From Panopea generosa (lineage: Eukaryota > Mollusca > Bivalvia > Adapedonta > Hiatellidae): 64,000 nucleotides of DNA. Made by a program: the position numbers and the translations under genes. The stretch lies in the NCBI GenBank assembly GCA_029582155.1, contig CM055898.1, positions 25,149,339 through 25,213,338 on the forward strand. Direction: 5' to 3'. This document shows, piece after piece, positions 37,728 to 62,879 of this stretch (position 1 is the first letter of the stretch; every line of letters begins with the position of its first letter). Below the pieces are notes generated by a model. That model did no database searches, was not told where the DNA came from, and saw only the letters and a program-made list of their open reading frames with translations.

Positions 37728-37925
37728 AGAGTCATGAGTTCGAATTCCCGTCCGACCACAGTCTCTACGATGACTGGCTAAGCACTTGGTTCTGTGACAA
37801 TGGATCTTCTACCTGAGTATAAGAGGAAAGTAGTACGTAACTCTCATATTTAAGGTGTGTTTAATATTAATTAATCGCCTAGCAATTCCTAGGAGCGATG
37901 ATTTGGTGACTGACCCGTCTTTATA
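37728..37925 (+). mobile_element. tRNA-derived SINE fragment
   Basis: The B-box-like GAGTTCGAATTCCCG is followed by a body ending in TTAATCGCCTAGC. The element at 52,151-52,400 has a similar GTTCGAATTTC head and TAAACGCCTAGCGG tail, so the two may be one family. Confidence 0.5.
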
Positions 37926-38459
37926 TACTGAAACACTGTCGAAAATGGCGAAAATGAAGGACATGATCAATTGTATTAAGATTTAATAACATTCATATAG
38001 TCGTACAACATTTATAGTCCAGTTAAATCGTGAACACATACTTTAGAGAATTGGAAAAGCACTTAACTTGATACTACTGTAGGGCAAGCAAAAAGATGAG
38101 CGTGAAACTCACTCTATAAATCTGATTTAGAGTGAAAATCCGAAATGTATAACATGTAAGAAATGCCTAATATTGTCTGTAATACCTACATAAACACAAA
38201 CACTTATCAGTATCATTAGTTAAAAGAATATATTTGAAATATTAAGATATAATAATGTATATAGATATATAATTATGTACCAATATGTTTTCGTGATAGT
38301 TTCTTTTATTTCTATATAGCATGAATATTCACTGTGTAATACGTTTTTATTTTCAATATGGTTTATTGTTTGCTTGTGCATATATAAGATTGAAATAAAT
38401 ATAAACACATTTTTGCCGTGGTTAAAAACATCTTATTAAATAAAACATTCAGCACTTAC

Positions 38460-38664
38460 CGAGCTGCTTGTTTGAAACCATCCTCCGTGTTCCGGCGTGA
38501 TGATCGATTTGCATTTTGTGTATGAAAGTTCCCCACTGTTCTGCCAAATGCCAACAAGGTCGCCAACTTGAGCGTGTAGTTGGTCTGTCTCGTTGATTCG
38601 GACCGTATATTTCCTGTCTTCAACCGTAGTTATTACGTTTTGACCAGCAAACTGGTAGGTATTC
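38460..38664 (-). CDS. Exon 20: beta-rich module, second half
   Basis: AACAG acceptor, donor CG|gtaagt, 205 bases, ending at phase 0. It reads NTYQFAGQNVITTVEDRKYT, then LHAQVGDLVGIWQNSGELSY and ends GWFQTSSS. The 'V-GD-VGIW---G-LSY' pattern looks like a beta-sandwich module seen in invertebrate extracellular proteins, which I cannot name. One cysteine (YTKCKS) is present. Confidence 0.8.
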
Positions 38665-41600: not shown

Positions 41601-44600
41601 TTATTTAAACAAGGATGTAAACCTTATATTCATCAGAAAAAAAAACATTGAAAGAAAGAATATAATCAAATTCTAACAACCTTTTTCCACAAAAACATGT
41701 TTTAACCATAGTATTTAAAAAATTGCATTGAAGTCACATATGGTAATTTGGTAATGGTTTATCATTCAAAGCAAGTCATTCAGTTTCGTAGCCTTTAAGG
41801 CAACTGGAATTATTGTATACATTATATTTAGATAAATTAATATACATGATAATTTATCACATCGTGACCAACCTCCGACGCCGCATGTTTTCCTACAGTT
41901 GTGCCAGGCAAAGCTCGGCTGATTCTCACACATTTTGGGTATTTTTTTAAGTATCTGCTCACAATCATCTAATTGGTCGAGACATACAATAGGCGTGGCT
42001 GCAATAAAGTTAAAATGTCAATTTTAATTAAACGAGTGTCCAGTCTGTATGAGGAACGAATCTTATAGTGGTAAAACTTGTGACCCATTCCCATTTCAAA
42101 TATAGCACTGAAATAAATGTTTAGGCTAAATTATTAAACAAAGTGCATACCTGTTGGCGCGTATTCGCAGACGACATTGTATTTATGATACTTGCCCTCA
42201 CGACAGGTCTTATCGTTCCATTTCGATTTTTGGCTGACAACGCAATCTTCCCCGCCACGATAGTTATTTGGTTGATCTGTTATAACGTAAAGATACAATT
42301 CAGTGGTATTGAACTATTTTTTTCTATTCTTCATTACTTTATATATAGAACCAGAAACGAATTAAACAATAAATATATATTGCAAACCTTGTATTATGTC
42401 ATTTTCAATCAATAAACCAGACGCTACAATAATATCAATCAAAATGGGAAGGCGTATTGATATTTATTGTATTCTAGTTTATGTTTTCATGAATCTTTCT
42501 TCTAGGAACGCCATTTAGTTTTTATACATACCCTATTCACTAATTTCTTGGTCAGATTCCTCAGTAAACGTGTTTGTTTACTTACATGGTTGTTTTCAAA
42601 ACAATCTTTTTCAAATATCTAAATTCCATTTACTGTAGTTCAATTGTATGTCGCCTTGCGAATACCAAGCCCGCCCAACTAGCATGACAAGGATATAGCC
42701 TTTGTTACTTACACTGCGCTCTCAAAGTCAAATCGTTATTGTTTTTGTATGCGTAAAACACATCATGAACTACGCTTATTCTATTCTTATACTACTCCAC
42801 CTATTTTAGTCAGAATTGAACATGAAAGCTAAAGAGTTTTTTAACGAATGTCAAATAGAAGAAGTTGGTGCCACAGAAGTCATTGTTGAACGTCAAATGT
42901 ACAACGGGCTTCACGCGATAAATAGCACAAAACAGATTGTGTTAAAACTTATAAAAGAGTGGAATGCCACCCCTCAATTCTAAATACAACGTCTTATTTG
43001 CAGTATATGGCGCAGACGACAAGCAGTAGTGAACGCAAACGGTGGTCACACATGATACTGATTTGTGAACTTTGTTTTTCACCCCAATTCAAGACAATGC
43101 CACACGGAAGTCACATATCATTCTTTCTTTTATCAGACCTTGGTTAAGAAGCTCTTTAAGTTTATTTTATGTTCAATGTTTACAAATAAATTAGGTAAAT
43201 CAGTATCAAAATACAATGAGTACATTTCATGGTGCGTCTTCACTGACCGTCAGTATATTTACCTGACTCCCAGTTACTGTAACTAAGGGGCGAACCATCT
43301 TGCCAATGCCATACTCGAGATTCGTCAGCTTCCAGACCTATCCAAGCAACTGCCACCTGTTCCCTATTGGTAAAGATAGATAATAAATTTATATAACTTG
43401 TCTATGATATACATACATAACTAATGTAACTAATGGTGTTATAACTTGTAGTTCAATCCATCTGACTATGTTACGTATATTTGTTATCTTCTGGCATTTA
43501 TTTGTATATGTCGATATATATACTATACATAATAAAATGTACTCAAACCAAACTGTCAGACTGACGTTAAAAACCATCATATACTTTTCATTCAGTGCTG
43601 ATATTATGTCTGGCTTTGAAAAATAAACGTAGCCATTGTCGTTCGGATATAGATATCACTTAATCCGGTGCTAGCGGAGTGTGAGAGTGTTGCATATTTA
43701 ATCCGGTGCTAGCGGAGTGTGAGCGTGTTGCATATTTAATCCGGTGCTAGCGGAGTGTGAGCGTGTTGCATATTTAATCCGGTGCTAGCGGAGTGTGAGA
43801 GTGTTGCATATTTAATCCGGTGCTAGCGGAGTGTGAGCGTGTTGCATATTTAATCCGGTGCTAGCGGAGTGTGAGAGTGTTGCATATTTAATCCGGTGCT
43901 AGCGGAGTGTGAGCGTGTTGCATATTTAATCCGGTGCTAGCGGAGTGTGAGCGTGTTGCATATTTAATGCGGTGCCAGCGGAATGTGAGCGTGTTTCATA
44001 TTTTATTATTCTCTGTAACGGAATCTGTTACGGCAAACCAAGTCTGATATTTTCTTTTATTTTACTAATCGCGTTCTGAGATTCTAAAGAAGCCTTCTAT
44101 CAGATATAATTTGTACAGGTCACGTGTCAATTTTAAGCTGTATGCTGCTATTAATATATGACTTACATATCATATATTAATAAAAAATAAAAGTACGATT
44201 TCAACTTTAATTGAGAATTAATCAATTGCATAAATCCGTATGTACATCTCTCTGAAAATAATGCAATACTTTCATATTACAGTACTGTTCGTTTTATCAC
44301 TCAGATCGAATTTTATTATTATAAATAAGAAGATCAAGACACTTTATTCTACATATGAATGCATTTCATCATATACTTCTGCTGATATAACAAAATATTT
44401 TCTTACTTATCATAATTAACAATCTCGTCCATGATTTGTTGTACTTCAGCAGAGTCTACAGTTATAAGGTGTGCATCCAGATCAGCGCAAGCATTCTTTG
44501 CCGACTCAAAATTGAGGTTAACTTCCAATCCCAGCCATTTAAAACACTTTTGACCATAGATGGCCCAGTCAGTCCTGCAAGCTGAAATAACAAATGGGTA

Positions 44601-46248
44601 CTTGTTTACAAAACTTACGAATGGTCATATCTTTCCAGTTAACATATTCGGCAACTCACTGAGAGTCATCGATGTGTGAATGTTGTCAGAGAGACGCGAG
44701 CGAACAGAGACATTGCTGATTACAACATAAAAACCAAAGGTCTATATTAGTGGACCACTTTTTATAAGCAGTCTATACAAGAAATTAATACTTATCATGT
44801 TCGTTCGTGCATTTCGCAAGTATTCAATGAGTTCATTATTTAAAGGCTATAACATAATTGTTTTGTCTCGTCATCTTGTTTGTCGGTTGTGCCTCTTTAC
44901 AAATGTTTAATGAATTATTTACATTTGTGCTTTGTTGTGGCGGCTGAAATCTGAAATTATTCGCATTCTGTTTTAGACTATATTTTTCTATTTATAATGC
45001 TCTGAAAAATTGTAGAAATAACTATCTAGAGATGTTCAGAAGAGGTTGCTGCACGGGTAACCGCCTTAAAAAGGTCAGCAGCGGGCTTAAATTGTATTAT
45101 ATGGCATATGATATACCACGCATTAATTCGGTTACGAAATATTATGAAGAACGGTGATTCTACTTAGATTCATGCTGAGGTCTTTCTCCACCAATAAAAC
45201 TGGATATGCCATATATAATCAGATATATGTTGAAAACGTATGTTTAACCTTATTTGGTCACGAACCTCTCAGTAGTGTAACATCCTTTTTAAAAAAGTAT
45301 TAAATATAGTCAGTCCTTTCAATGGTAACTTACCTGAACATACAAAATTGAGATGGGTCCAGGTGCCTTCCGATGTGCAAGTTCGTGTTCTTTTGTCCTT
45401 AGTTGAAGGACACGTGTATGTTACCACATCTCCAAGCTTGTATGTCTCCTTGACTGGTGACGCAGCTATTCCACTCACATCAGCAGGTTTGGAACACGTT
45501 ACTGCATTGGTTATTAATTGAAATAAACAATAAATCTTGAAAGAACGAATACATTTATTATATTTCTTAGTTTTTCAGATTGTATTTTGTCTCATATCAG
45601 CAGGTTTCAAACATCTGTCTTGACTGACTACGACTCGGTGTTAGTTAATAACGTTAAATTATACTAGATATAAAATAAAAATCAAATGAAACTGTACATA
45701 TCTTATATTTTTTTTAATTACTTAACTTCAGAAATTCAGAAATATTTAGGTATTTGGAGAGTTCATAATGTATTCAAGACTAAGACATTAACAGCAAGAG
45801 TTGATAATTGCAGGTTTAAAGTCGATGTTTTTTTCTCGTTTTACATACAATTACGGTCAATATACACCATAACTGCCATGACATTTGTTTACAAATTTGA
45901 TTAACACACACCATTATGTTCATAACATTTACGAATATTTACATACATGTTATGATATTTAAAAATGAATATTTCTTCATTGTACCTGAACTCTTCTTTG
46001 AATGGCTTTCACATTTTCCACAGGTTTCCATACATTTATGATGAGCCTCTCCATTCTCGTTTGACGAGCAGAAATTTGAATCTGCCGCCAACCTGGCCGC
46101 ACAGTCATCGTCCATATCGTAAAAGCTTCCTGAAATAATACGTGTAACAGGTTATTTCATATTGTATGAGAATGAAGACATTGTTTGGACAATCGCTGTA
46201 TGTGAGTATTGATGTTGAATACATATCATACTTTAGGAAACCGATTCA

Positions 46249-46333
<85 letters not shown>

Positions 46334-49300
46334 GCTTATTTTTGTATGTTTTATACTCTTACTGCTTAATTATTCTTTTTAAGATGCAAACGGAAAAAAT
46401 ATAATAAACAAATAAACACAATCCAGCATGTTTATAAACCAAATGCAATTATTGTTTTGATTATCGATTCACTAGGTCCATGGGATGCATGTTCGAAATG
46501 TAAAAGAATTTAAAAAGAATCACTTGAACGAAAGGTGTTCGTTACCTGACATGCAGGCATCACAGTTTTGTCTCTCACATAATTCTGAATTCGTGTAACA
46601 CCAAGGCTGAGTGCCCAAGACTACATTACGGCAGTAGTTATGCAATGTCAAACCGGCATCCGCAGTTCTGAAATGTTTATGAATAACAACAAAGGAACTA
46701 TTTTCACAATTATTTAATCGTTTAAATTAAATATAAAAAATGAATACATGAAGGACTACTCCCCTTCCATCCAGTCACCTAATTTCTGGAGAAAAAAAAC
46801 GGCATGTAGTTCTGATATAGATTAAGATGTATCTTAATGTGTTGTATGTAATTATCACCAAAACAACAATACGCGGTAACATTATAAGAGAGACTTAGTG
46901 TTAAAAACTGACATTTTTCACACATGATTTTTGGTTAACCTATATCTTTTTTCAAGATTTCCATAATTGTTTCTTGTTTCAATTTCAGAAAGATATGTCA
47001 AGCCATTAACAATAAAATGTATGATCATGATTATCATGTCACATTTTTCATTTCGAAGTAATTGTTAATTAAATGTCGCTTTGTTTGTACCAAACTTACA
47101 ATGTGCCACACTTCAAAACAATCTTAACACCTAGTGAATTCGTGTCGGCATAGTTATAAAAGAAAATAATAACAAATACTAATTGAAAAAAGAAAAGTTT
47201 TCATTATCGTTATATTGTATTATTGCATTTCATTCTCTTATGCAGACAAACACAAAAAATCAATATGATTTATTACCAACCAATTTGATAGGTTATCTGG
47301 GGTGATGTTTACCAAGCATTCATAAGAATATTCTTAGGCGTAAGTTTGAACATCTAAATTTCAGCCGTAGATATTTAGTTTACCATGGCAGATAGAATAA
47401 ATGTGAGAGTTTATCTAATATATATTAGATGTACCTATCTGCTCGTCATTTTTTATTTATATCAATGGTATCTAATTGTTGAGTTTAAACGTACGAATAT
47501 TTTTAAAAATGGTTGGTGTAAACCAACTATGATATTTAAAGGAATATATTAAATAAAAATCTAATTTTATTTTTTCTCGCTACGACTTTCATTAATAAAA
47601 CACGTTCATGTACATTATTTCAATACTCATGCCGCCGTCTAGAATTGTATTAACATAAATATTTGTGGCAAATACATATATACCGTTTTGTATATTTTCC
47701 ATATATTCTTATAATTTTATTCTTATATATTCGTATATATTCGTTAATCTTACCTTGGATCAAACGCTGCGTACGGACAATGGGCGACTTCTGCCCATGG
47801 AAGACATGGTTCCAAGCTTTTGGTATAATTAACAGTTCCCGCATAGCTGCCGTCAATTCCATCTTTTGTATAGCACAAGTCTTCATCTGTAAAATAAAGG
47901 TATGGTTAACTATTGTATAGGATATAGCTACAGGTATTTAGTCAATTACGTTAACGATCTACCCCTCTAATGACCCTGACGGATGCTTACAGGAATACTA
48001 ATACAAAGTTAAGCTGAGTATGTTTGTAGTTTACACCATGCACATGCGCACGCCACTTCAATCGATGATCTGGCACGTGAATGACTATCGCCCCACCAAA
48101 CGGCCACGTGGTATTGTTTGTCCAAGTAAATACAGTGTAGTGTTTACTTGGACATCTTTATCTTGTCTATGGAAAATGATGGAGTAGCAACCAATATCGA
48201 TCGCTGTCTGGATTATCGACTTGTTTGATTGACAGTCCATGTTATGTCAATTGTAGGATGCCGGTTGCCGGTGGCTTCTTTTATACACAATATCTCATAG
48301 AGATGTGAGGACCGAAGAATAGCGATGTTCAGCTCACCCATTGACCTAGTTTATGCGTCCTAGTGAACCTGTTGACGACTTTTCTACTGACCGTTTCAAG
48401 GTGGTATATATGTATGGTACTTATTATGGTTATTCTGTGAAAAGGTTGCGTTTATATTTTGATTTTAAAATTGCCCTTGAGTGTAAAACAATTTATTCAA
48501 ACATATCTATCAATGCTGTAGATACAGTTTAACTTATTATAAACGTTCTGTGGAATTTGCTTTGATACATGATATAAATATGAGCTAGAATACACCAGTA
48601 TGTGTGATGACCTTGATATTGTGGCCGGGTGGTCTAAAGTGCCGTCTCAAGACGACTTACCTCTCACGCTCAGGTCGTAGGTTCGAGTCCCGCTCGCTCG
48701 AAAAAACTTTATTTGAGAAAGTTTGCCAGTTGTTTGCGGAAGGACTGTGGTTCTACCCAGATTCATTCTGAGGTCTTCCTCCACCAATAAAAATGGATAT
48801 GCCATATATAACCTGAAATAGCGTTTAACCCCATTAAAAAAATAAAATAAAGGGGCATGTATCTTATTATTAAAACGCATCATATTTCACACATTTGTGT
48901 CCACACATGACAAAAGTGCAATGCATATGCTATTTTCATTATTTTTATCAGTATGACAGAAGAAAAATCCAATGCAATTGATCAATTTGTATTTTCAGAA
49001 GGTTTTAATCTTTTCAAAACTAGCATGACTTTGCTAGTGTTATATAAAACGTTACTAATTTCTTAAATATGTAGTTTTAGACAGTCCTGCTTAGAGAGTG
49101 ATATCTTCGTGTGGTTATATGTAAAGATTTTAGAATGAACAAGAACCGATTTCAACATTGTCTTTAAACTATGTTGGTTATTTATTTAAAAAAACCCGAA
49201 GTGTTTGAATTTATCACGAAATAAATCTTACACGTGAACTAGATTATAATTAATTGTGAATTCATAGAACGAGATATAATGCTAATAATCAATTTTTAGT

Positions 49301-52300
49301 AAAAACATTTATTTTACCTCTATATATCTGAAGAGTTGCTTGAAATCCTTTAAATGTTGTTGAAGATACGTCACTTCTGAACTTGACCGTGAGGTAATTG
49401 TATAAAGTCCAAGTTGTCTTTCGATAGTTGTGTCCGCAGAACCTGCAGTGATGAATAGACAAATGTTGTTTTATGCCATGTCGCCACACTAGGAGGTCAT
49501 TTTGTGAGTATTCAGGTAATGCCATGACGATTGGAAAAACACATTCTAAACAAACATTTTAAGAAACATGTACTATATGTATGGGGGCGGGAGAAGAATG
49601 AAGAGAGAATAAAAACAAGTTAATAACGGCAGATATTTATATGAATATGATTTTTTTTAATGTGTTAATAATATTTATGAAAGAGATAAAATGATGTTAA
49701 ACTGCTGAGAGGTGACCGTCAAATATTTTATACGTTATGGACTTTCAAATTATTATGACGTCGTATGACTATTTAAAACGTCTAATTTTGAGAGTATTTG
49801 GCACCATTACTTCCAGGAACAAGACAGTCATCATCTAATAAAAGATACAACATAGTAAATTACGAGCACGTGTATCCATGTTTCATATTTTCGAAAAGGA
49901 CAAAGATTGTGTAAAACGTACAATTTTTGCAGTAATCACCCATTTTACCTCAAACATGATTAGTGTCTACGTAACAGACACACGTAATGTAAATTCCTAA
50001 ATTGAGGTCAGCTATTCTGTGTTTAACATATCTGATACCGACAGAAGAAATACGGTTTGTGTAAAATGCAAATGTAAAGCCACTGATACTAGATTGAGTA
50101 TGTTTAACAGAATGTCAATGAATAAGCTAGTGCATTGAATCATACTTGAATTTGCCCATTCTTGATTAGGAGAAAGGTTTGAGGTTTCCATTTTATTTTC
50201 TGTTCTGTGCTTCAAAGTGATTTTTATCCGATAATATTGAAAGTGATGTGTGTGTTACAGCCGTCGTAAAAGGTAGCCTCGAACTTTGACCTATGTTGTT
50301 ATTTCTTGGAGTTCCTTGGTGATCAATTGGTTTATTCCATCATAGAGTTACTGCTTAAGCCAGTGTTGCTAACGGCTGTGAAGGATGCCTCATGAAAAGA
50401 CTCGCTATATTTTGTCGAAATACCAAATATATCGGACAAAAGAAACCTATGATAGTATAAAACATGTCCAGGAAAAGCAACTAGCAGACTCGGTTACATG
50501 TAGCAAACCGAGTCTGCTATTTTTTTTTCTTGGGCGCGTTTTATGATTTCACAAGTTATTTTTATCTTATGGCATTAGTCTTTACGTAAGAGATACAGTT
50601 GATGTGGTATACGTACTTGTAACCAGGCATTCCGGGTAAAACAAAGATAATCTCTATATAAGATTTGCAGGAGGAATCGCTCTCATATTAAACTTCGAAG
50701 CCGCTGGCAAAGTCAAGCTGCATCTTGCTGCCTTCTGGACTCTGGCGGATGAACGTGAATATAGCAGAAAAAATGACTTTTTCGGAGATGCAAGTTTGCT
50801 TTCTTTTATAAATATAATTTCAGTAGTATACAAATAAATCAAGTGATCCCGGTTTTTGAGTGGCAAAGTGTTTTACGTTTAAGCATATATCAATCAATAC
50901 ACATTTTACAGCGAAAAATCTGATTTATGTAGTAGGTTAATAGGTTTGCAACAACTTCGGATATACGTTAAATACTTCGGCATTCCATCATTTATTAATT
51001 TGACATATTTAAGATTTATCATCAACATATAAAATCTTTTTTTTTAAATTTTATCAATCACAATTCTGCATTAAAATTTGTCAATTTAAATTATCGTTTT
51101 GTGATATTAAAACCAATCAACATCATTGGAAAAATGACGCTTTTTTATTTACCACTTTGAAATACTGTTCAATTGATACATAATTTAAGGTTTCCCTTCA
51201 GAAATTATGTACACTAAACCTTTGTCAGAAACAAGTGCTCCAAAAAATAATTCAAACATTTAAACATAATACACTGAAAGGTTTACATGTCGAAGAAGTA
51301 ATAGACTTCTACTGTATGAAAAAATGCGCTCATAGAATTAACTAAATTAATAGCACATCTTTTATCAATACCTTAAAATGCCACCCACAGTCCCTACTTG
51401 GAGGGTAGTTGTTTGGATATCCAGGACTTGAGATAGTGTATGATGTTTCAGTTGTAAACGTTTTCACTTCCCCGCAATCTGTTTCATGACATAACAGTTT
51501 TGAAAACATATAAAAATGAGAAGTTATACAACATGATGTTCAGCATGCGACCTAGTATTCAAGGGACACAGCCACAATAACAGCACGAAGTTTTCATGCA
51601 ATACACACAATGAACTACCATATACAGGATATAAACGTACAAAAGAAAAACTGACAACAGATGTCAAAGACATTGAACGATCAGTAGAAAACACCACTGG
51701 AAAACTGAGACCATGCTTCTGTTTCACCAACATAATAAATACTAAAAAAGCTTAGACCATGCTTCTGTTTCACCAACATAATAAATACTTAAAAAGTTTA
51801 AACCATGCCTCTGTTTCACCAACATAATAAATATTTGAAAAGCTTAAATCTAAGAAATACAGCTAGATGTATCTCGTTAAAATTTCACATAATTATATCT
51901 CGGTAACTAATTTACGGACAATCATTGCCATGAAGTCACTATGGTTAACGGTATGCAGATAAAGCCGCCCAACGTATTGTCCTTTTCGAATAAAGTCGTA
52001 GGATTGATTGATTGATTGAATATTTAGCGTCATTTTTATGCCACCGAGGGCTAACAGACGATCAGTTAACCTAACCACTGTTTCCTGGGATTAAGTCGTA
52101 GAAAATGAAGTATTGGCCATTAATATGTGGTATACTAGTAACATAATAGTCGGGTTTGGCTGGCTCAGTCAGTTATGCGTCTGACTGTTAATCCAGTGGT
52201 TTCCAGTTCGAATTTCAGCACAAAAAACAATCTCTGAGGTTATTTGTTCTATCTCATGTTTGCCCCGCCGTTTAATGTGTTTGGAGGTTGTCAGTGACGT

Positions 52301-53005: not shown

Positions 53006-56000
53006 CAATGTAGTTAAAAAAATAATCTCTTTTTCTTTAAATTAAAGTCTACATGAGACAGTATTCTAAGCATTGCCACACTAGGTTATCATACTGCAAC
53101 ATATGATAAAATAGCCCACCCAGTCACAATATACTGACACTGGACAGACCACACCTAGAACTATCCTCGAAATGTGCCATGCGAGGAAGCTAATAGTATA
53201 AATTTTCACGTATTTGGTATGGTTCGGCCGGGAATTCAGAACAATGAAGTAACATATTCGGTTTTATTGAGTCTTTTCTAGAGGGATAATGAAACAAACA
53301 ACATCCGTCACAAATCAGAAAACAAAATAAGGAAAACTTAGTCTAATTACTTACCTTGATTTAAGGGGAAATAGACGCAGTAGTAGTAGTTGTAAAGATC
53401 GTTACTGTACTTGTAAATATATGGAATCTGTCCGGTTATATTTACATTTAATGCCGAATAGTTGGTACGCATCATATAATATTCTTTTATAGAATACATA
53501 CCTAAACAAATACAAATGCAACCAATTTAGATGTGTTGCTTAAATGCATTATTTTTTTTATGGTTATTGTTATCATTATTACTATTTGGTGGTTTCTGAA
53601 TTTCATTTTGATATTTTTTTATAAAAATAAACAACTATAATTGACAAAAAATAATCAGGATTTACTCCTTTGTTTTGTCCATATTTTTTCCTATTTTACA
53701 AATTCTGTCGTTTTTAACAAACCATTTTCAAATTCTTATACCAATGAATGTCTGTTCTCAATAGGACTTTAATCGAAAGCGGTGAAATAGAATTTGAAAT
53801 ATGTCAAAAATTCGTGTCGATGAATTCAAATAAATACAGACCAATTTTGATTTGAAAAAAAAAATGATATTAGATTACAATACGGATTTCAGATTGAAAT
53901 CATTCAATATTAATTAAACAGACATTTGTTATAATTTACGTTTAGTTTTTACATGACATTTCAGCCCTAAGACGTTAAAAGAACAGCCGGGTCCAGTATT
54001 ATAGTAATTGGAAAGCTGAGTTCCGGTTTATATTTTTCAACAAATGGATAGAAATAATTATGGTATTAGTTTTAATTGAAGTCACCAACAATTATTATTC
54101 AATAAGTATATTCAAGCAATCTATTGGTCAGTATCTTACATATTCAATATTTTACAAGTATGTGACCACATCTACTAATTAACCTTCCGTTTTAAAGTTC
54201 AGTATATGGGCATCACCTCACGTGACATTTTGGTATCAGACTTGTAAAGACATTATTTATAACTTTTTTTGATATTAAACGTATTACTTTAAATAAACTT
54301 ATTTATGGTAAACTGCAACTCTATTGTGACAATACGTTAAAATATTTGAAGCAGTTCAGAAATACATTGTATCTACTTATCGTTTCGCTTTAAAACCTGT
54401 AACGTCTGAATAACTAACAAGACTTAGTCTGTTTTAATTTACAGAATTGATGTTTACCTGTCCTTCAGTTGTGTCCATGCCGTTCAGAACATGTCCAATA
54501 TGAACATGAGTTATTATTAAATGGGTATGCTACTACACATATTCATATACTACATAAATAATTTGATTTAGTTTTCTTTTTTCAAATATTCGCTTCATTT
54601 TTCTAATCTTTTTAAACATACAAACCAATATGACTTACATTATTTTAAAGAGAATATAATCATCAGGATTTTTCAAAATTTCCCCAAATATATCATGCCA
54701 ATATATACTCACTGACCCCATATTGCTGAAAGAATACATATTCAAACATACTAAAATAAAATATTAAAAACAAGTTTCCTAACATGGGCTACGCGCCTAA
54801 CTTAGCCTAAAATATATTTCCCGGTTAATATTGCAACATATTTTGTGATGTATTAAAAAGTTGTTTCTTTATATGATTTTGATCCGTTATACAGGGTTAC
54901 AATTAGTAAAAATAGTTTCATCCTAGAAAGAGTCCGAATGACGATACGAATGTCGTCAAGCAGTATTTAAGTGCTGTCTATTTTTAGAATATGGATTTCG
55001 TTTCAAGTTTACCACTCTCATTTAAATATCGATTTTGTCACGTTTTTGAGGATTTTACATACCATAAACTATTCGGATTTCATTTATTAATGATAATGAG
55101 ATGATTTGATCCATTTTGATAATTATTTAAGTCTTTAAGACATTTATAGCGTTTTATCCTGATATACCCCCTATGTAGCATGTACATCTTAAACAAATTG
55201 ATATTCATAGAGTTTATAACAAAATCAAAATTGTTAACGATCTGCCAAATATGTTAATGTTAAAATTTAATACATGTCATGGATAATAACTTTATTAGAT
55301 TTTAACTTCCGTTTTAATCCTTACGATTGCTTTAATGCCAAAATGGTCTTTTAAGATAGGTTGTTGCTGAATACAGGTTAAAGTTGTGATGAAAGCATAT
55401 GAATAGGAAATAACAAGAGAAACTCCGTAAGACAAGTGGCTGCTTAATAGAGGTGACTGCTCACTCAGGTTTGACTGTACTTTAAACCAACATCAGCAAT
55501 TATTTCTATGAACATTTTTAATGTGTTTTGTCACAATCCGCATAGTATTAACACCATCATTAAGCAAAAAAATTACCTGTAATGCAATCTATTTTTAGAA
55601 AATTGGCCATGTTTGTATATAAAAAACGTTGTTTCAAAACCCTATAATTTGCATTTCATTCTCACCTTCTACCTCCTGGCAACCCCATTGATTCTTTAAA
55701 TACAAGATAAAGCTGTTTGTGACAGGAAGACTGATTGGTATTTTATAATGTCCATCATTTCTGCAGCAGAACTTGTACTCAAAGAATCGGTCATGGTGAC
55801 CGTCTGGTACAACTCCTGTGGAACCATTTCTCAACTGAACATTACCGTATGTCTCTATGGTACCATTCTCAAAACCTGTAAAATATCAATACATCATATA
55901 TGTCCTGTCATAAGCGTTAATACATTTACTATAAAAGTGTTGTTTTTTTAATAATGATAACCTACATATCACACAAAGCTTGACGTAAAATATTAACAAT

Positions 56001-59000
56001 AACTAAATATTCCTTTATTTACAAGCAAATATAAACTATTTAAGCATATCATTATGAAATTAAAAAATATTTTCATATTTGTAAAACCCATTAATTGAAT
56101 AAAGTTGATTCAAAGTTCAAAGATTGTAAAGTGAAATACTGTAAACCACTAGGTAATAGCGAGAACTTAATTCCCGCTATTATTCGCAAGTCTTAACTCT
56201 TGCGAATTTAAAGATTTCGCTAAAATTACAATTATGTTCAATATCCGAATGTTTACAATATCCGAATAAAAAATGAATTCCGGCAGTTCCACTTTTCGAA
56301 CGTCGCAAACTTTTCATGAATAAAAAAAATAGGTAAAATCAGAGCAAAATCGCAAAATTAAGTTCACACGAATTTAAAGTGTTTTATTGTATATCAATAT
56401 AACGAAATATGCGAGATAATAAACAAAAACAATATAAAAAAAACATTTGCATTTTCCTGTGTCACTGTAACATACTGTGTCTCAATATTATCATTAAACC
56501 AGTAAAACCTATATGTGTATGGCATTAAGAAATAGTTAAATAATGCATTGTTACAGATAAAAAATATTTCTTCAAGTTAATTCCGTTATCATTACATCAT
56601 TGCATAGTCTTGCATTAAGCATCAGTGTTTTATATACCAATTTCATAAAAAACTGTTTTGATTTCACTCTTCTAATCCTTAACAACTATTATGTCTAGTG
56701 GTTGAAGTGTCGTAAACAATTGTCTGCAGATACCCAACCCCAACACCCTCCGCCCTGTTATCAGAAAGTCATACTTTGCCATCGGGGTACACTCTGTCAT
56801 ATCTTAGTATACAGTCTTCTCTTGGTGACCAAGTGAAAACCCGCCTTGAAATCAGAAAGTCATACTTTACCATCGTGGCACATTTCGCTTATTTAAGCAC
56901 ACAGTATTCCTCGTTTGATCATGTGAAACACTGCATCGAAATCAGAAAGTCATACTTTACCTTTGTGGCACATTTCGCCATATTTTAGTATAAAGTATTC
57001 TCCTGGTGACCAAGTGATACACCACCTTGAAATCAGAAAGTCAAACTTTACCATCTGGTCACCCCGCCATATCTTAGTATACTGTATTCTCCTGGTGACC
57101 AAGTGATACACCACCGAGAAATTAGAAAGTCATGTTTTACCATCGTGGCACATTTCGCCATATTTCAGTATATTGTATTCTCCTGGTGACCAAGTGATAC
57201 ACCACCTTGAAATCAGAAAGTCATACTTTACTATCGTGGCACATTTCGCCATGTTTTAGTATACAGTATTCTCCTGGTGGCCTAGTGATACACCAACTTG
57301 AAATCAGAAAGTCATACTTTACCACCGTGGCACATTTCGCCATGTTTTAGTATACAGTATTCTCCTGGTGGCCTGGTGATACACCACCTTGAAATCAGAA
57401 AGTCATACTTTACCATCGTGGCACATTTCGCCATGTTTTAGTATACAGTATTCTCCTGGTGGCCTAGTGATACACCACCTTGAAATCAGAAAGTCATACT
57501 TTACCATCGTGGCACATTTCGCCATGTTTTAGTATACAGTATTCTCCTTGTGGCCTAGTGATACACCACCTTGAAATCAGAAAGTCATACATTACCATCG
57601 TGGCACATTTCGCCATGTTTTAGTATACAGTATTCTCCTGGTGGCCTAGTGATACACCACCTTGAAATCAGAAAGTCATACTTTACCATTGTGGCACATT
57701 TCGCCATGTTTTAGTATACAATATTCTCCTGGTGGCCAAGTGATAAACACCCTTGAAATCAGAAAGTCATACTTTACCATTGTGGCACATTTCGCCATGT
57801 TTTAGTATACTGTATTCTCCTGGTGGCCTAGTGATACACCAACTTGAAATCAGAAAGTCATACTTTACCATCGTGGCACATTCCGCCATATTTTAGTATA
57901 CTGTATTCTCCTGAAGACCAAGTGATACACCACCTTGAAATCAGAAAGTCGTATTTTACCATCTGGTCACTCCGCCATATTTTAGTATACTGTATTCTTC
58001 TGGTGACCAAGTGGTACACCACCATTAAATTAGAAAGTCATACTTCACCATCGTGGCACATTTTGCCATATTTAAGAATACTGTATTCTCCAAGTAAACA
58101 AGTGTTACACCACCATGAAATAATAAAATCATACTTTACCATAACGGCACATTTCGCCATATTTTAGTATAGAGTATTCTCCTGGTGACCAAGTGATACA
58201 CCACCTTGAAATCAGAAAGTCATACTTTACCATCGAGTCACATTTTGCCATATTTTAGTAAACAGTATCACCCTGGTGACCAAGTGATACACCGCCACCT
58301 TGAAATCAGAAAGTCATACTTCATTATCGTGGCACATTTTGCCATATTTAAGAATACTGTATTCTCCTGGTAGCCAAGTGATACACCACCATGAAATCAG
58401 AAAGTCATACTTTACCACCGTGACACACTCCGCAATATTTTAGTATACTGTATTCTCCTGGTGACCAAGTGATACACCACCTTAAAATCAGAAAGTCATA
58501 TTTAACCATCTGGTCACTCCGCCATATTTTAATATACTGTATTCTTCTGGTGACAAAGTGTTACACCACCATGAAATCAGAAAGTCATACTTTACCATAA
58601 TGGCACATTTCGCCATATTTTAGTATAGAGTATTCTCCTTGTGACCAAGTGATACACCACCTTGAAATCAGAAAGTCATACTTTACCATCGAGTCACATT
58701 TTGCCATATTTTAGTAAACAGTAACACCCTGGTGACCAAGTGATACACCACCACCTTGAAATCAGAAAGTCATACTTTACCACCGTGGTACATTTCGCCA
58801 CATTTTAGTATAGAGTATTCTCCTTGTGACCAAGTGATACACCACCTTGAAATCAGAAAGTCATATTTCACCATCGAGGCACATTTCGCCATGTGTTAGT
58901 ATATTGTATTTTCCTTGTAAACAAGTGATACACCACCTTGAAATCAGAAAGTCATACTTTACCATCGTGACACACTCCGCAATATTTTAGTATACTGTAT

Positions 59001-62000
59001 TCTCCTGGTGACCAAGTGATACACCACCTTGAAATCAGAAAGTCATACTTTACCATCGTGGCACACTCCGCCATATTTTAGTATACTGTATTATCCTGGT
59101 GACCAAGTGATACGTCACCTTGAAATCAGAAAGTCATACTTTACCATCGTGGCATATTTCACCATATTTTAGTATAGAGTATTCTCCTGGTGACCAAGTG
59201 ATACACCACCTTGAAATCAGAAAGTCATACTTTACCATAATGGCACATTTCGCAATATTTTAGTATAGAGTATTTTCCTGGTGACCAAGTGATACACCAC
59301 CTTGAAATCAGAATTTCATACTTTACCATTGGGTCATATTTCGCTTTGTTTTAGTATACAGTATTCTCCTGGTGACCAAGTGATACACCGACTTGCAATC
59401 AGAAAGTCATACTTTACCACCGTGGTACATCCTGCCATATTTAAGTATACAGTATTCTCCTGAAGACCAAGTGATACACCATCGTGAAATTAGAAAGTCA
59501 TACTTTACCATCGTGGCACATTTTGCCATATTTCAGTATATCGTATTCTCCTGGTGACCTAGTGATACACCACCTTGAAATCAGAAAGTCATACTTTACC
59601 ATCGTGGCATATTTCGCCATATTTTTGTATAGAGTATTCTCCTTGTGACCAAGTGATACGCCACCTTGAAATCAGAAAGTCATACTTTACCATCATGGCA
59701 CATTTCGCCATATTTTAATATAGAGTATTTTCCTGGTGACCAAGTGATACACCACCTTGAAATCAGAATTTCATACTTTACCATCGGGTCACATTTCGCT
59801 TTGTTTTAGTATACAATATTCTCCTGGTGACCAAGTGATACACCACTTTGAAATTAGAAAGTCATACTTCACCATCGTTGCACACTTCGTCATATTTTAG
59901 GAAACTGTATTCTCCTGGTGACCAAATGAAACATCACCTCCTTGAAATCAGAAAGTCATACTTTACCATCGTGGCACACTCCGCCATATTTTAGTATACA
60001 GTATTATCCTGGTGACCAAGTGATACACCACCTTGAAATCAGAAAGTCATACTTTACCATCATGGCACATTTCGCCATATTTAAGTATAGAGTATTTTCT
60101 TGGTGACCAAGTGATACACCACCTTGAAATCAGAATTTCATACTTAACCATCGGGTCACATTTCGCTTTGTTTTAGTATACAGTATTCTCCTGGTGACCA
60201 AGGGATACACAACCTTGCAATAAGAAAGTCATACTTTACCACCGTTGTACATTCAGCCATATCTTTGTCTACAGCATTATCCTGGTGACCAAATGATATA
60301 CTGCCTTGTTATCAGAATGTTATACTTCACCATCTGGCACACTCCGTCATGTCTTAGTATACAATATTCCCCTGTTGAGCAAGTGATATCCCGTCTTGTT
60401 ATCAAAAAGGCATACTTAACCACCGTGGCACACTCCGCCATATCTTAGTATACAATATTCCCCTGGTGATTAAGTGAAACCCATCCTTGTTATCAGAAAT
60501 TAATATTTTACCATCGGGACACACTCCGCCATATCTTAGTATACAGTATTCTCCTGGTGACCATGGACCAGAACCAGCGCTTGTCGTTTTTGTGCACGTA
60601 TCATGGGACACTTCACGTCCATCTATGTACCTATTTAATTATGCAACTGTTATTCCATTGCAATGTTTAATGGTTATATAATTTATTACATATTACCACA
60701 ACAAAACATCACGGACGTATTGTTTCAGTTTTCAAAATGCACAGAGCGATAACTTTTAATTGATAATTAAGCTATTAACTATTTAGATGTACATTCCTTT
60801 TTCTATCAGGCAAAGGAAAAGGCAGCATAGTTTTCCGAGAACTCTTGTTTGTTGTGTGGTAACCACATGATATATAACTCAATTTTTTCTGTCACTTTTG
60901 GGATTCCAATAATTAAAAAATATAATATCTAGCAGTTATTAGACCATTAACCGTTTTTTTATTATTATAGTACCAAAATGGTCAACATTTGTTGCAAACC
61001 TATTATTTTATATGTATTTATAGATTGATTTTCATTGACCAATTTAACTAAAACTCATATTTTAAACGTTTTAGAGGGTGTGCAATAATTAACGAATGAG
61101 TCAGACGTGCAAACGGACGATGTACACTATTAAAGAAATAGCAATTGTCGCTGTTTTTTTTCTGTTTATTTAGTGTGACTTTAACATTTGGTTAAACAGA
61201 TACACATATACAAATAAGGGAAAATGTTTCAATTGTTGTTGCCAGTAATGGGAACATCGCTCGTCGTACGAAGGCGGAAATGGCCGAACGATATTACGAT
61301 AGTGTTGCGAGAAATAATTTTCCACGAGTCGTGATTACAATTTATCTTTGCTACTTTGCTTCAGCAATTCATTCTATTTACCCTGGGGAGTTATATTGTC
61401 CGCCTTTCCACACCCACGCCGAGGCCCAGTGCACCATATTTCCCACGGTATATCCGGCTGAGCAATTTTTATTTTTCACTTTAAGCGTAGAATGTGTACC
61501 AGTTGGCATCATGGTTGGGTAACCTTAAATGAAACGAAATAAAGAATGTTTCTTCTGTGGAACTTCAGCTGCAGCTGTGATCAATATACTAGTATAGGAG
61601 TATACTAAATAAACTGTGTTTGAAGTATCTAAAGTTCGCATGTCAATAAATTACCTACCTTTACATAGATATTAAAACATGTTTTGAATTCGCATACAAA
61701 TTCAACTCATTTTTATTGATATTTTTTGTTGTTGACTGAAATTCAATTTTATTTAATGACATTCATAATGGACATGACTAGCTAGGTACCCACTAGCGAT
61801 TGAATATCCCGTATGTGACACTTACAAATATATATACATGTACTACCATTTCAATTCCCGAACTGTGACACTAATCTATGGATATACAAATAAAACTATA
61901 CTCCAATATTTCATAAGGACCATGTCATTTATTTCCCATAGATGTTACTTTAATGGTATTTGTATAATTTTAAAACTTTTTAAAACTTCATGCCATATGC

Positions 62001-62879
62001 ATGAAATTACAAATATGGGAAATATATTTAAAATCAGTATTAACTTATAATATGTTATTGACTTAACATTAAAAATAAACGCATATTTAAAACAATTTAA
62101 TTTTTTGCCCCAAAATTTATATTTTTCAAAATATTGTATTTTTGTTTAAGCGTTCTTATTGATCAATTTAAGATTTCGCGGTGTTCATTCAACTTTGAAT
62201 CTTATTATAATAAAATGTATTAACAACACTCTGTTGAACAGGACCATTCAAAGATGATATTTCACCTATATCATAAGCCAGGGTCGGAGGCTGGGTTGGG
62301 CTGGGGGCGGGTCGTAACAGGAGTTGGGCGAGCTGTACAGTGATAATCAGTGGCAAACCCCAACCACAAGAGTTCGCTAAATATGACCAAACCAACAAGT
62401 GATGCATTCTTTAGGCATATTTGTTCGTACAATTAGTGATACATACTTGAGGCGTACCTGGTCGTACAATTAGTGATACATACTTGAAGCGTATCAGGTC
62501 GTACAATTAGTGATACATACTTTGGGCGTGTCTGGTCGTACAATTAGTGATATATAATTGGGGACGTATCAGGTTGTACAATTAGTGATACATACTTGGG
62601 GCGTATCTGGTTGTACAATTAGTGATACATACTTGGGGCGTACCTGGTCGTACAATTAGTGATACATACTTGGGGGCATATCTGCTCTTACAATTAATGA
62701 TGCTTACTATGGGCATGTCTGGTCGTACAGTTGGTGATACTTACTTGGGGCGTATTTAGTCGTACAATTAGTTGCAGAATCCAAACCATTCGGACATCTG
62801 CAGGAACATTTCCCATCAATAACACTCACATATCCGCCCATCTCACACACAGGCTTCGTGTCACATGATGGAAACTCGG
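38460..62879 (-). CDS. Secreted multi-domain ApeC/CUB/kringle/C-type-lectin mosaic gene (partial)
   Basis: Twenty exons, listed separately, join in one frame: EGF-like (62,745), ApeC (four exons, 61,523-53,355), CUB (three, 51,478-49,318), kringle (two, 47,886-46,546), ShKT (45,986), CCP (45,334), C-type lectin (three, 44,581-42,151), ShKT (41,873), CCP (two, 40,448-39,854) and an unrecognised beta-rich module (39,286-38,460). All splice borders are GT-AG and every phase matches. The modules are cysteine-rich and extracellular, so a secreted or surface recognition protein is likely; ApeC and lectin domains suggest microbe binding, by inference from the families. The first exon(s) with a signal peptide lie beyond the window and the last exon was not found. 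A TAA at 50,688-50,690 inside CUB would end the protein early, so this copy may be inactive, polymorphic or affected by a sequence error. Confidence 0.85.
39076..39286 (-). CDS. Exon 19: beta-rich module, first half
   Basis: It joins the CCP exon through a split isoleucine codon. It reads PEVTSSVDQFVDKANYRRSK and then GMVTSWTFYSNYVGTVSFQL, ending WRATNVT. The 'V-SW-FYS---GTVSFQ-WR' pattern pairs with exon 20. 211 bases, acceptor TTCTAG, donor AC|gtatgt. Confidence 0.85.
39523..39801. repeat. (AT)n microsatellites in an intron
   Basis: ATATAT runs at about 39,523-39,538 and 39,781-39,801. A nearby (AATG)n-like stretch at 39,290-39,440 (GAATGAATGAAT) is also low in complexity. Confidence 0.9.
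39854..39959 (-). CDS. Exon 18: second CCP/sushi domain, second half
   Basis: It reads YVQYQCNVGYFHTNGDLTRA then CLLSGSLTGTSPTC, with the Y-C--GY, R-C and P-C marks of a sushi repeat. 106 bases, acceptor TTCCCAG, donor CCA|gtgagt. It joins exon 17 at phase 0, so this CCP is split internally while the first CCP is not. Confidence 0.92.
40354..40448 (-). CDS. Exon 17: second CCP/sushi domain, first half
   Basis: It starts by completing a valine codon and supplies the last cysteine of the preceding ShKT (VCKPQ), then CTDDANLSDSGQ and SSTLAVGE. 95 bases, acceptor TTTTTAG, donor GAG|gtgtat. Confidence 0.9.
40600..41545 (-). mobile_element. tRNA-derived SINE carrying an internal minisatellite
   Basis: The minus-strand head at 41,458-41,545 has GGGCTCATTTAGCTTAGTTG (A box) and GTCGTGAGTTCAAATCCCC (B box). 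The body runs into the 51-bp array and ends with GTGGTTAGGTTAACATACC and CTGTTAGTCCTGGATGGCAT. That tail alone recurs on the minus strand at 52,020-52,095. The element lies in the intron between exons 16 and 17. Confidence 0.65.
40667..41366. repeat. 51-bp minisatellite, 13-14 units
   Basis: The unit is TTCTTGGGATCCTGGAAGAT, TATATAGTGCTCGAGCACAC and ATCTCCGCAAG. Units are almost identical and vary mainly at two places (TTCTT/TTACT and CTCGAG/CTCAAG). It contains the perfect palindrome GTGCTCGAGCAC. The 51-base period keeps frames open on both strands (up to 263 codons), which is not evidence of coding. Confidence 0.95.
41873..41998 (-). CDS. Exon 16: second ShKT (SXC) domain
   Basis: It reads VCLDQLDDCEQILKKIPKMC then ENQPSFAWHNCRKTCG, five of the six cysteines; the sixth comes from exon 17. 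The C-D--D-C spacing and C--TC end are typical of ShKT domains, found in secreted enzymes and matrix proteins as well as in anemone peptides. Nothing indicates toxicity here. 126 bases, TTGCAG acceptor, GGAG|gttggt donor. Confidence 0.9.
42151..42276 (-). CDS. Exon 15: C-type lectin domain, third part
   Basis: It reads QPNNYRGGEDCVVSQKSKW and then NDKTCREGKYHKYNVVCEY. The QPN triplet, the glutamate before the fifth cysteine position and WND are the calcium/sugar-binding positions of a C-type lectin. QPN is a variant of the usual EPN or QPD, so sugar preference cannot be inferred safely. 126 bases, AACAG acceptor, ACAG|gtatgc donor. Confidence 0.95.
43263..43363 (-). CDS. Exon 14: C-type lectin domain, second part
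   Basis: It reads EQVAVAWIGLEADESRVWHW then QDGSPLSYSNWES, with the WIGL and W-W-DG signatures of the fold. 101 bases, acceptor ACCAATAG, donor TCAG|gtaaat. Confidence 0.95.
43661..44003. repeat. 38-bp minisatellite, nine units
   Basis: The unit is TTTAATCCGGTGCTAGCGGA plus GTGTGAGCGTGTTGCATA, at an exact 38-base step from 43,665. Units differ at one site (GAGAG or GAGCG); the last unit is degenerate. It lies in the intron between exons 13 and 14. Confidence 0.95.
44407..44581 (-). CDS. Exon 13: C-type lectin domain, first part
   Basis: It reads CRTDWAIYGQKCFKWLGLEV then NFESAKNACADLDAHLITVD, including the extra N-terminal cysteine pair of long-form C-type lectin domains. 175 bases, acceptor TTTCAG, donor GATAA|gtaaga. 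It completes a six-cysteine domain with exons 14 and 15. Confidence 0.95.
45145..45235 (+). mobile_element. SINE (family A), 3' fragment
   Basis: TCTACTTAGATTCATGCTGA, CCACCAATAAAACTGGATATGCCATATATA matches the 3' part of 48,621-48,850; the tRNA-like head is missing. Confidence 0.65.
45334..45501 (-). CDS. Exon 12: first CCP/sushi domain
   Basis: One exon carries the complete domain: TCSKPADVSGIAASPVKETY, then KLGDVVTYTCPSTKDKRTRT and CTSEGTWTHLNFVCS. All four cysteines, the Y-C mark and the tryptophan are present. 168 bases with phase 1 introns on both sides, a symmetrical shuffling unit. Confidence 0.95.
45986..46129 (-). CDS. Exon 11: first ShKT domain
   Basis: It reads SFYDMDDDCAARLAADSNFC then HHKCMETCGKC and a polar tail SHSKKSS. 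The first cysteine comes from the end of exon 10 (ACMSG). 144 bases, acceptor TTTCAG, donor TCAG|gtacaa. Confidence 0.92.
46252..46330. repeat. (GT)n(CT)n compound microsatellite
   Basis: A GT run followed directly by a CT run, about 79 bases in total, in the intron between exons 10 and 11. Confidence 0.95.
46546..46667 (-). CDS. Exon 10: kringle domain, second half
   Basis: It reads TADAGLTLHNYCRNVVLGTQ then PWCYTNSELCERQNC. HNYCRN and PWCYT are kringle hallmarks. 122 bases, acceptor TTTCAG, donor TCAG|gtaacg. It ends DACMS, supplying the first cysteine of the following ShKT. Confidence 0.95.
47754..47886 (-). CDS. Exon 9: kringle domain, first half
   Basis: It reads EDLCYTKDGIDGSYAGTVNY then TKSLEPCLPWAEVAHCPYAA, with the C-----G-Y-GT-N-T and C--W pattern of kringles and one extra cysteine (AHC). 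133 bases, acceptor TTTTACAG, donor CAAG|gtaaga. Confidence 0.93.
48621..48850 (+). mobile_element. tRNA-derived SINE (family A), full length
   Basis: The serine/leucine-type head GTGGCCGGGTGGTCTAAAGT has a long variable arm and a B box GGTCGTAGGTTCGAGTCCC. The body is GTGGTTCTACCCAGATTC, CACCAATAAAAATGGATATG and GCGTTTAACCCC. It lies in the intron between exons 8 and 9, antisense to the gene. The head is tRNA-like, but the following body marks it as a SINE and not a tRNA gene. Confidence 0.8.
49318..49442 (-). CDS. Exon 8: CUB domain, last part
   Basis: It reads FCGHNYRKTTWTLYNYLTVK then FRSDVSSTTFKGFQATLQIY. The C-G, LTV-F-SD and GF-A patterns are those of a CUB C-terminus. 125 bases, acceptor CTGCAG, donor GAG|gtaaaa. 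Confidence 0.95.
50617..50741 (-). CDS. Exon 7: CUB domain, middle part, with in-frame stop
   Basis: The acceptor CCGCCAG and donor AA|gtacgt give 125 bases that fit both neighbours exactly in phase. It reads SPEGSKMQLDFASGFEV, then TAA (complement of 50,688-50,690), then YESDSSCKSYIEI and PGMPGY. The SPEG---L-F--FEV start, the third CUB cysteine and the I-EI strand are in place on both sides of the stop. A single-base change from a sense codon would explain it. No alternative splice in the right phase avoids the stop. Confidence 0.85.
51372..51478 (-). CDS. Exon 6: CUB domain, first part
   Basis: It reads CGEVKTFTTETSYTISSPGY then PNNYPPSRDCGWHFK, with the classic I-SPGYP--YP and C-W signatures. 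107 bases, acceptor GAAACAG, donor AAG|gtattg. It joins ApeC through a split aspartate codon. Confidence 0.95.
52020..52095 (-). mobile_element. SINE tail, same as at 40,600
   Basis: The minus strand carries GTGGTTAGGTTAACTGATCG and CTGTTAGCCCTCGGTGGCATA, matching the 3' end of the element at 40,600-41,545 without any minisatellite. Confidence 0.6.
52151..52400 (+). mobile_element. tRNA-derived SINE
   Basis: The head GGCTGGCTCAGTCAGTTATG (A box) and CCAGTTCGAATTTC (B box) is followed by a body with CCCGCCGTTTAATGTG and TTAAACGCCTAGCGG, ending CCATCAAACAAACAAATAAA. It is in the intron between exons 5 and 6. Confidence 0.75.
52962..53002. repeat. (CT)n microsatellite
   Basis: Pure CT run of about 40 bases in the intron between exons 5 and 6. 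Confidence 0.95.
53045..53235 (-). mobile_element. SINE (family C), eroded
   Basis: Shares AGCCCACCCAGTCAC, TATACTGACACTGG and TTTGGTATGG with 8,261-8,547 in the same orientation, with many changes and a lost B box. Confidence 0.6.
53355..53501 (-). CDS. Exon 5: ApeC domain, fourth part
   Basis: It reads MYSIKEYYMMRTNYSALNVN then GQIPYIYKYSNDLYNYYYC. The G-HPY-like GQIPY and the final C-Y are the expected end of an ApeC (apextrin C-terminal) domain. 147 bases, acceptor TTTAG, donor CAAG|gtaagt. Confidence 0.92.
54660..55080 (+). repeat. Dispersed repeat, partner at 30,435-31,015
   Basis: Shares ATATATCATGCC, ACTGACCCC, GGGCTACGCGCC and ATTTTGTCACG with the partner; shorter through internal losses. 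It lies in the intron between exons 4 and 5. Confidence 0.8.
55666..55875 (-). CDS. Exon 4: ApeC domain, third part
   Basis: It reads FENGTIETYGNVQLRNGSTG, VVPDGHHDRFFEYKFCCRND, then YKIPISLPVTNSFILYLK and GCQEVE. The G-PDG, FCCR-DG, PI-LP and CQ-V motifs are diagnostic of ApeC. 210 bases, acceptor TTTTACAG, donor GAAG|gtgaga. Confidence 0.97.
56137..56392. mobile_element. MITE-like dispersed element
   Basis: It begins ATACTGTAAACCACTAGGTA and ends GAATTTAAAGTGTTTTATTGTA, with weakly inverted ends and internal AATTCCCGC and AAAATCGCAAAATTAAG segments typical of a common bivalve short element. It is in the intron between exons 3 and 4. Confidence 0.5.
56760..60511 (-). repeat. 91-bp tandem array derived from ApeC exon 3 and its donor, about 40 units
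   Basis: On the minus strand each unit reads CTTGGTCACCAGGAGAATAC, TGTATACTAAAATATGGCGA, then ATGTGCCACGATG|GTAAAG and CTTTCTGATTTCAAG. The first 50 bases match the end of the real exon at 60,512-60,575 (TGGTCACCAGGAGAATACTG), and GATGGTAAA matches its 5' splice site. Units nearest the exon (60,240-60,511) are the most diverged; 57.2-57.8 kb and 59 kb are most uniform. The array fills most of the intron between exons 3 and 4. Confidence 0.9.
60512..60630 (-). CDS. Exon 3: ApeC domain, second part
   Basis: It reads YIDGREVSHDTCTKTTSAGS then GPWSPGEYCILRYGGVCPDG. The C-KT, W--G-YCI and CP-G motifs are those of ApeC between its two halves. 119 bases; acceptor AAATAG, donor GATG|gtaaaa. One base enters and one leaves, linking exons 2 and 4 in phase. 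Its last 60 bases are the source, or one member, of the 91-bp array. Confidence 0.93.
61382..61523 (-). CDS. Exon 2: ApeC domain, first part
   Basis: It reads YPTMMPTGTHSTLKVKNKNC then SAGYTVGNMVHWASAWVWKG and QYNSPG. The P-GT, C--GY--G---W and N-S order matches the start of ApeC. 142 bases, acceptor TTTAAG, donor CCAGG|gtaaat. Its duplicate at 4,001-4,142 has the same length and borders. Confidence 0.88.
62405..62744 (-). repeat. 37-bp minisatellite seeded by the EGF exon end, about ten units
   Basis: On the plus strand the unit is TCGTACAATTAGTGATACAT plus ACTTGGGGCGTATCTGG. On the minus strand each unit repeats CTAATTGTACGAC--ATACGCCCCAA followed by GTATGT, the last coding bases and donor of exon 1. 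The units are directly joined to the exon's real donor (CCCCAA|gtaagt). Confidence 0.88.
62745..62879 (-). CDS. Exon 1 of the visible gene: EGF-like domain
   Basis: It reads EFPSCDTKPVCEMGGYVSVI then DGKCSCRCPNGLDSATNC and TTKYAP. Six cysteines with the C-C-CP-G--C ending form an EGF-like unit of the kind found near ApeC and astacin domains in molluscs. 135 bases, acceptor TTGACAG, donor CCAA|gtaagt. It starts with two bases of a split codon, so at least one more upstream exon exists beyond the window or unseen. Confidence 0.85.

Follow-up and report, generated by a model that had tools for sequence, protein, structure and literature searches.

A 91-bp satellite across the exon 3-intron 3 junction of an ApeC gene of Panopea generosa is very probably a drifting intronic minisatellite

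The window analysed here, 64,000 nucleotides of the Panopea generosa genome (C5:25,149,339-25,213,338 of a 1.47-Gb genome in 39 contigs), holds on its minus strand a gene with an ApeC domain, and a tandem array of 91-bp units lies across the junction of exon 3 and intron 3 of this gene. In all probability the array is an intronic minisatellite that grew across this junction and whose units have been drifting, rather than a store of alternative exons. Each unit consists of the last 52 nt of exon 3 and the first 39 nt of intron 3, and unit 1 is the actual end of exon 3. A preceding sequence-only reading had described about 40 units copied from the end of exon 3 and its donor, and had named simple minisatellite growth as its more cautious interpretation; both the description and the cautious interpretation are borne out (41.8 copies; coordinates in Table 1).

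Arrays and their periods were called with Tandem Repeats Finder (TRF). With 41.8 head-to-tail copies of 91 bp, the array falls within the roughly 10-100 bp units of minisatellites, and its units align to the end of exon 3. Blocks of units recur within the window gene: units 5, 9 and 14 are alike, as are units 21 and 26. A 91-bp segment over the exon 3-intron 3 junction would have been duplicated in tandem before three copies of the gene split from one another, and the array may then have been altered, independently in each gene copy, as single units or whole blocks of them were duplicated. The exon-like letters and donor-like GT dinucleotides of the later units would have been kept by descent alone, while drifting. 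The array would be tolerated because its first unit retains the true exon 3 end and donor and everything beyond is intron; probably this first donor is the one in use, and splicing removes all of the later units.

Genome-wide DNA searches placed the unit solely at this junction of three paralogous genes on C5, although its absence elsewhere is not absolute because the searches skip very common words. Paralog A (at about 25.097 Mb) has 7 units, paralog B (the window gene) 42, and paralog C (at about 25.648 Mb) 24, copy numbers that differ between related loci as those of minisatellites do. Two further matches (25,612,010 and 25,152,701) cover the intron 2 part of the query and not the unit. Arrays are frequent near exons in this genome, as would suit a mobile or dispersed satellite that landed in intron 3 by chance, but the unit holds the end of the local exon 3 and was located only at the three paralogous junctions; on these grounds a dispersed origin was rejected as extremely improbable. 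The two matches to intron 2 of the host gene, at 3363-3547 of the window (minus strand) and at C5:25612010-25612210, are at 72-73%.

Paralogs B and C are 96% identical in intron 2, and A is 80% identical to each of them. The outer units of the B and C arrays correspond: B39 and C21 have no difference, B41 and C23 one, B01 and C01 one, and B04 and C04 nine. The 11 B/C unit pairs, set by position, have 0 to 9 differences, and the middles of the two arrays differ in the number and type of their units. These shared outer units and unshared middles, together with the repeated blocks, fit growth by tandem duplication that would have followed the split. A 46-bp intronic satellite of the same genes (51701-51846 in B; C5:25091636-25092935 in A) has 28.2 copies in A and 3.2 in each of B and C, which indicates that satellite growth is specific to each gene copy and varies in direction.

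The consensus unit can be read as AAG, 65 nt and GT, with the phases of exon 3 (one base in, one base out) and a 26-nt spacer between candidates, the spacing that had been noted from the sequence. The sequence-only reading had raised the possibility that these candidates are splice-ready micro-exons, any use of which would be mutually exclusive as in Dscam. On this view a single unit would stand in for exon 3 each time, and many versions of this part of the ApeC domain would result. The phases would suit exon 2 and exon 4, the latter beginning at 55,875, and the short spacer would forbid the joining of two units. A candidate of 65 nt is 54 nt (18 codons) shorter than the 119-nt exon 3, inside the 20-residue tolerance given in an excerpt of PMC3228551, but the copies hold just the last 52 nt of the exon, and the first 22 residues of exon 3 would be lost.

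Among the 41 testable units of B, the GT is kept in 39, the in-phase length in 36, and the AG at its aligned place in 32 (in unit B21, additionally, it is shifted 3 bases upstream); 26 are in phase and open, and 22 have everything. Units with AG, GT, phase and open frame number 10 of 23 in C and one of the six testable in A, and both cysteines of the copied stretch are kept in 15 of the 64 units of B and C. The 65-base candidate had been described correctly as to consensus AG and phases. Most units had been called open, but exceptions are commoner than stated; of the closed units that had been named, the one near 58,270 is as described, and the one near 58,730 (B21) has CACCAGGGTGTTAC in place of ...GGGTGA, its frame being closed by a different stop. 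Conservation of splice sites and frame across copies, a mark of mutually exclusive exons, was not found in the units of B, C and A.

Nor did the copies, taken as coding sequence, bear signs of selection, the variant classes of B plus C being neutral. Distinct variants were counted against the consensus, and the neutral expectation kept the base-change spectrum the same: of the 133 variants 70 are nonsynonymous (66.8 expected), 19 are synonymous (19.6 expected), 9 create stops (10.0 expected) and 35 lie in the spacer (36.7 expected). The true exons of the three genes (exon 7 excluded) served as control, and the ratio of nonsynonymous to synonymous change (pN/pS) in them is 0.37 between A and B (329 codons), 0.45 between A and C (288 codons) and 0.30 between B and C (288 codons), the last resting on 7 synonymous and 8 nonsynonymous differences. 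When the units of B and C are taken together, the three codon positions have diversities of 0.205, 0.171 and 0.117, the third being the lowest.

Retention of the splice signals was compared with a permutation null in which each variant was moved to another site of the same base, with carriers kept and insertions ignored; units with gaps in the 65 columns (6 of 41 in B, 7 of 23 in C) were omitted. In the gap-free units of B, open frames (26/35 versus 20.9 +/- 4.1, P = 0.135), AG (31/35 versus 29.5, P = 0.445) and GT (33/35 versus 29.3 +/- 4.1, P = 0.22) were not retained in excess. By variant classes, codon positions and AG and GT counts, unit divergence in the large arrays of B and C takes no account of frame or splice sites, one of the two outcomes that the sequence-only reading had named as refuting its micro-exon proposal.

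The AG itself is derived from the intron (positions +25/+26) and is not a copy of the exon 3 acceptor. Weight matrices were built on 13 acceptors and 11 donors taken from the gene family. By them the consensus AG, at -3.4, lies below 71% of the 2192 AGs of a 46-kb region that includes the array itself; the true exon 3 acceptor is also weak (2.3). Of 20,000 shuffles of the intron-derived 39-mer that left its GT in place, 31% had an AG beyond position 14 that was in phase and open, and 26% had one as strong or stronger, so that the micro-exon shape of the unit is no great surprise. Variant classes, splice-site origin and paralog comparison led to the rejection of mutually exclusive micro-exons, which we regard as very unlikely.

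Several results weigh against a purely neutral account of the minisatellite. In the gap-free units of B, AG, GT and open frame occur together in 22 of 35, with 15.0 +/- 4.2 expected by permutation (P = 0.061), and this slight surplus of fully intact units is the strongest of these results. In the gap-free units of C, all three features occur together in 10 of 16 (7.1 expected, P = 0.18), and open frames number 12 of 16 (10.0 expected, P = 0.30). The 26-nt spacer, which carries the splice-like sites, has a lower mean heterozygosity than the exon-derived part (0.111 versus 0.172), although the two differ little in distinct variants per site (1.35 versus 1.48). In the seven units of paralog A, diversity at the three codon positions is 0.058, 0.114 and 0.095, not lowest at the third, with few variants to count. 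The excess of intact units, the lower spacer heterozygosity and the codon pattern of A might be traces of weak constraint acting on a small number of units. The repeat itself is more than chance would produce; its combination of open frames with splice sites is not clearly so.

Mutually exclusive exons might also be expected to pair with a docking site, and the units do favour one antisense site in the tail of their own intron 3. Within each gene, duplex energies of the units (every fourth unit for B and C) with intron 2 and with the tail of intron 3 were compared with 30 dinucleotide shuffles each. In the tail, no shuffle was as good for A, 2 were for C and 12 for B; in intron 2, the counts were 1 for A, 8 for B and 13 for C. 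The best duplex falls at one tail site (at most 100 nt) for 7 of 7 units of A, 20 of 24 of C and 23 of 42 of B. A complementarity search of B that allowed G-U pairs found 3 of 200 mononucleotide shuffles as good in the tail and 81 of 200 in intron 2; against 500 dinucleotide shuffles, the same search of the tail gave 7 as good in B, 0 in C and 5 in A, the consensus unit of B and C being used throughout. Plain Watson-Crick inverted-copy homology of the tail was not significant (114 of 500 shuffles in B, 124 in C, 111 in A), and conservation of the tail site between A and B was no better than that of the rest of the tail. The docking-site signal is mixed: it stands out strongly from the shuffles in A, is borderline in C and falls short of significance in B. 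The preferred antisense site lies at about 56380-56480 of the window (minus strand), and similar sequence was seen by eye in A and C.

The condition of the host genes does not favour an elaborate splicing device: the two genes with long arrays, B and C, are the two that look damaged. In B, CUB exon 7 contains an in-frame stop and has lost its donor (Table 1), whereas A and C have GAG/GTTAAA at that donor and both read on without the stop. Paralog C has no equivalent of 35,599-50,189 of the window (14.6 kb): the alignment jumps from C5:25,641,127 to 25,641,125 between flanks that are 96-97% identical, and with the absent stretch go the exons from exon 8 through the lectin exons. In paralog A the exons from exon 8 up to the first lectin exon are present, and its 15 recovered exon segments are free of stops; the last two lectin exons did not turn up in the fetched part of A.

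The donor-like sites of the array may also be considered as decoys, some 40 extra 5' splice-like sites that would compete for U1 and lower or tune the splicing of exon 3 according to copy number. The GT of the consensus unit scores 5.4, near the 6.1 of the true exon 3 donor and above 93% of the 2770 GTs in the same 46-kb region, and GT is kept in 21 of the 23 C units as well as in nearly all of those of B. A minisatellite with multiple splice donor sites, reportedly that of the human gene 6-16/G1P3/IFI6 with a unit of about 12 bp, is named in a published title and according to one citing paper interferes with splicing. The portion of PMC4039745 at hand describes an intronic minisatellite of Caenorhabditis elegans that is enriched near multiple alternative splicing decisions. 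The retention of GT in B does not, however, go beyond its permutation null (P = 0.22, as above), the donor of unit 2 would shift the reading frame, 91 not being divisible by 3, and later donors would pass a stop right after 60,405. Because of this frame shift and stop, use of a decoy donor would bring loss of function and not diversity. We consider such competition unlikely.

A second satellite in the same gene also spans a donor. Its 37-bp units (Table 1) carry the donor of the EGF-like exon as the 91-bp units carry that of exon 3, and it is present in the paralogs with 4.4 copies in A and 10.1 in C. Apart from these two, no array in the fetched regions of A, B and C touches a mapped exon segment. 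The chance of at least two donor-spanning founding units among the 13 array loci in 46 kb of gene B is about 0.014, or 0.009 for units of at least 37 bp, by an estimate that is post hoc and uses one hand-picked period per array locus and 17 mapped exon segments. For a wider sample, 34 exon-centred loci were taken, namely seven of the eight excised ApeC loci (43 matches listed) and all 27 astacin loci; one of the 34 (L006) is paralog A. An array lies within 1.5 kb of 17 of the 34 (16 of 33 without paralog A), some of which overlap or are paralogs of one another. No array crosses an end of the matched stretch in any of the 33 other ApeC and astacin loci, where matched stretches are not exact exon ends, and three loci with arrays close to the match (L007, L036 and L041), read by eye, contain no exon copy.

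The simplest account of two donor-straddling arrays in one gene is a filter, such arrays being harmless as the first copy retains the true site. A mechanism by which junctions seed duplication is possible. The fuller proposal that the 5' splice junction seeds satellites (of 91 bp and 37 bp) whose near-copies of the donor act as U1 decoys, making the inclusion of exon 3 dependent on array length, seems to us distinctly improbable.

The minus-strand host gene spans about 42155 to beyond 64000 of the window. Its 17 mapped exon segments encode, in order, astacin, EGF-like, exon 2, ApeC (exons 3-5), CUB, kringle, ShK-like, sushi and C-type lectin segments. In a partial model of paralog A, ApeC (4.2e-28), CUB, Astacin, Kringle and Sushi score above the Pfam cut-offs. 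The labels EGF, ShK and lectin were assigned from residues, the EGF-like one from a cysteine pattern that no family call scored. Part of the gene model, used as a query against proteins, had three matches, among them one from an oyster that has MACPF and ApeC domains and aligns over the exon 3-exon 4 join, and a protein of the nemertean Tubulanus polymorphus that combines the Pfam domains ApeC, CUB, Kringle, Sushi and Lectin_C.

Table 1. Features of the host gene and its satellites in the window (slashes mark exon-intron or exon-exon joins).
Feature	Position	Strand	Remarks
91-bp satellite array	56760..60563	-	TRF: period 91, 41.8 copies, 85% matches
Exon 3, part of ApeC domain (YIDGREVSHDTCTKTTSAGSGPWSPGEYCILRYGGVCPD/G)	60512..60630	-	last 52 nt are array unit 1; same exon in A and C
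True exon 3 donor GT (GATG/GTAAAA)	60510..60511	-	identical in all three paralogs; predicted to be used
Exon 2	61382..61523	-	leaves two bases, and exon 3 enters with one
Exon 4	55666..55875	-	ApeC domain, carried on from exon 3
EGF-like exon	62745..62879	-	its end and donor (CCCCAA/GTAAGTATC) form the 37-bp unit
37-bp satellite, about 10 units	62398..62772	-	unit is last 28 nt of EGF-like exon and first 9 nt of intron
CUB exon 7, matched stretch	50649..50741	-	in-frame TAA at 50,690-50,688; donor lost (GAG/ATTATC)

Literature searches found no account of this array, which is no proof that none exists. The array is nevertheless of a kind already reported in human paralogs: genes of human segmental duplications have internal tandem repeats at exon-intron boundaries, according to the section of PMC2812944 available. 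The P. generosa array resembles these repeats in being a minisatellite at an exon-intron boundary of duplicated genes with copy number differing between paralogs, but whereas the human repeats, in that section, average 30 bp in four copies and some are reported to change transcripts, the present one has up to 42 copies of 91 bp and is known from DNA alone. The minisatellite of an interferon-induced human transcript is reportedly similar in that its unit contains a splice donor and the start of the intron holds many donors; it differs in its units, which are reportedly short, and in the reported use of its donors, the units here being 91 bp long with 52 nt of exon and putative donors. Clusters of the Dscam type, as outlined in excerpts of PMC6071210, PMC8042237 and PMC3228551, share with the array tandem exon-like copies between two constant flanking exons with matching phases. 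Unlike the exons of those clusters, the copies in the array lack the 5' part of the exon and its acceptor, no constraint is seen on their frame in the large arrays, and no selector or docking site is established.

Peptidoglycan binding by the ApeC domain is reported for some proteins of amphioxus and molluscs in the part of PMC9585378 seen. If the units were used, they would be a large and fast-changing store of alternative ApeC pieces. As a minisatellite, the array exemplifies how tandem duplication over an exon-intron junction can yield convincing but unconstrained look-alikes of exons, and because 22 of its units would pass a simple screen for phase, splice dinucleotides and an open frame, it offers predictors of mutually exclusive exons a possible negative control. 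The presence of two donor-spanning satellites in one gene is the part that deserves a wider count.

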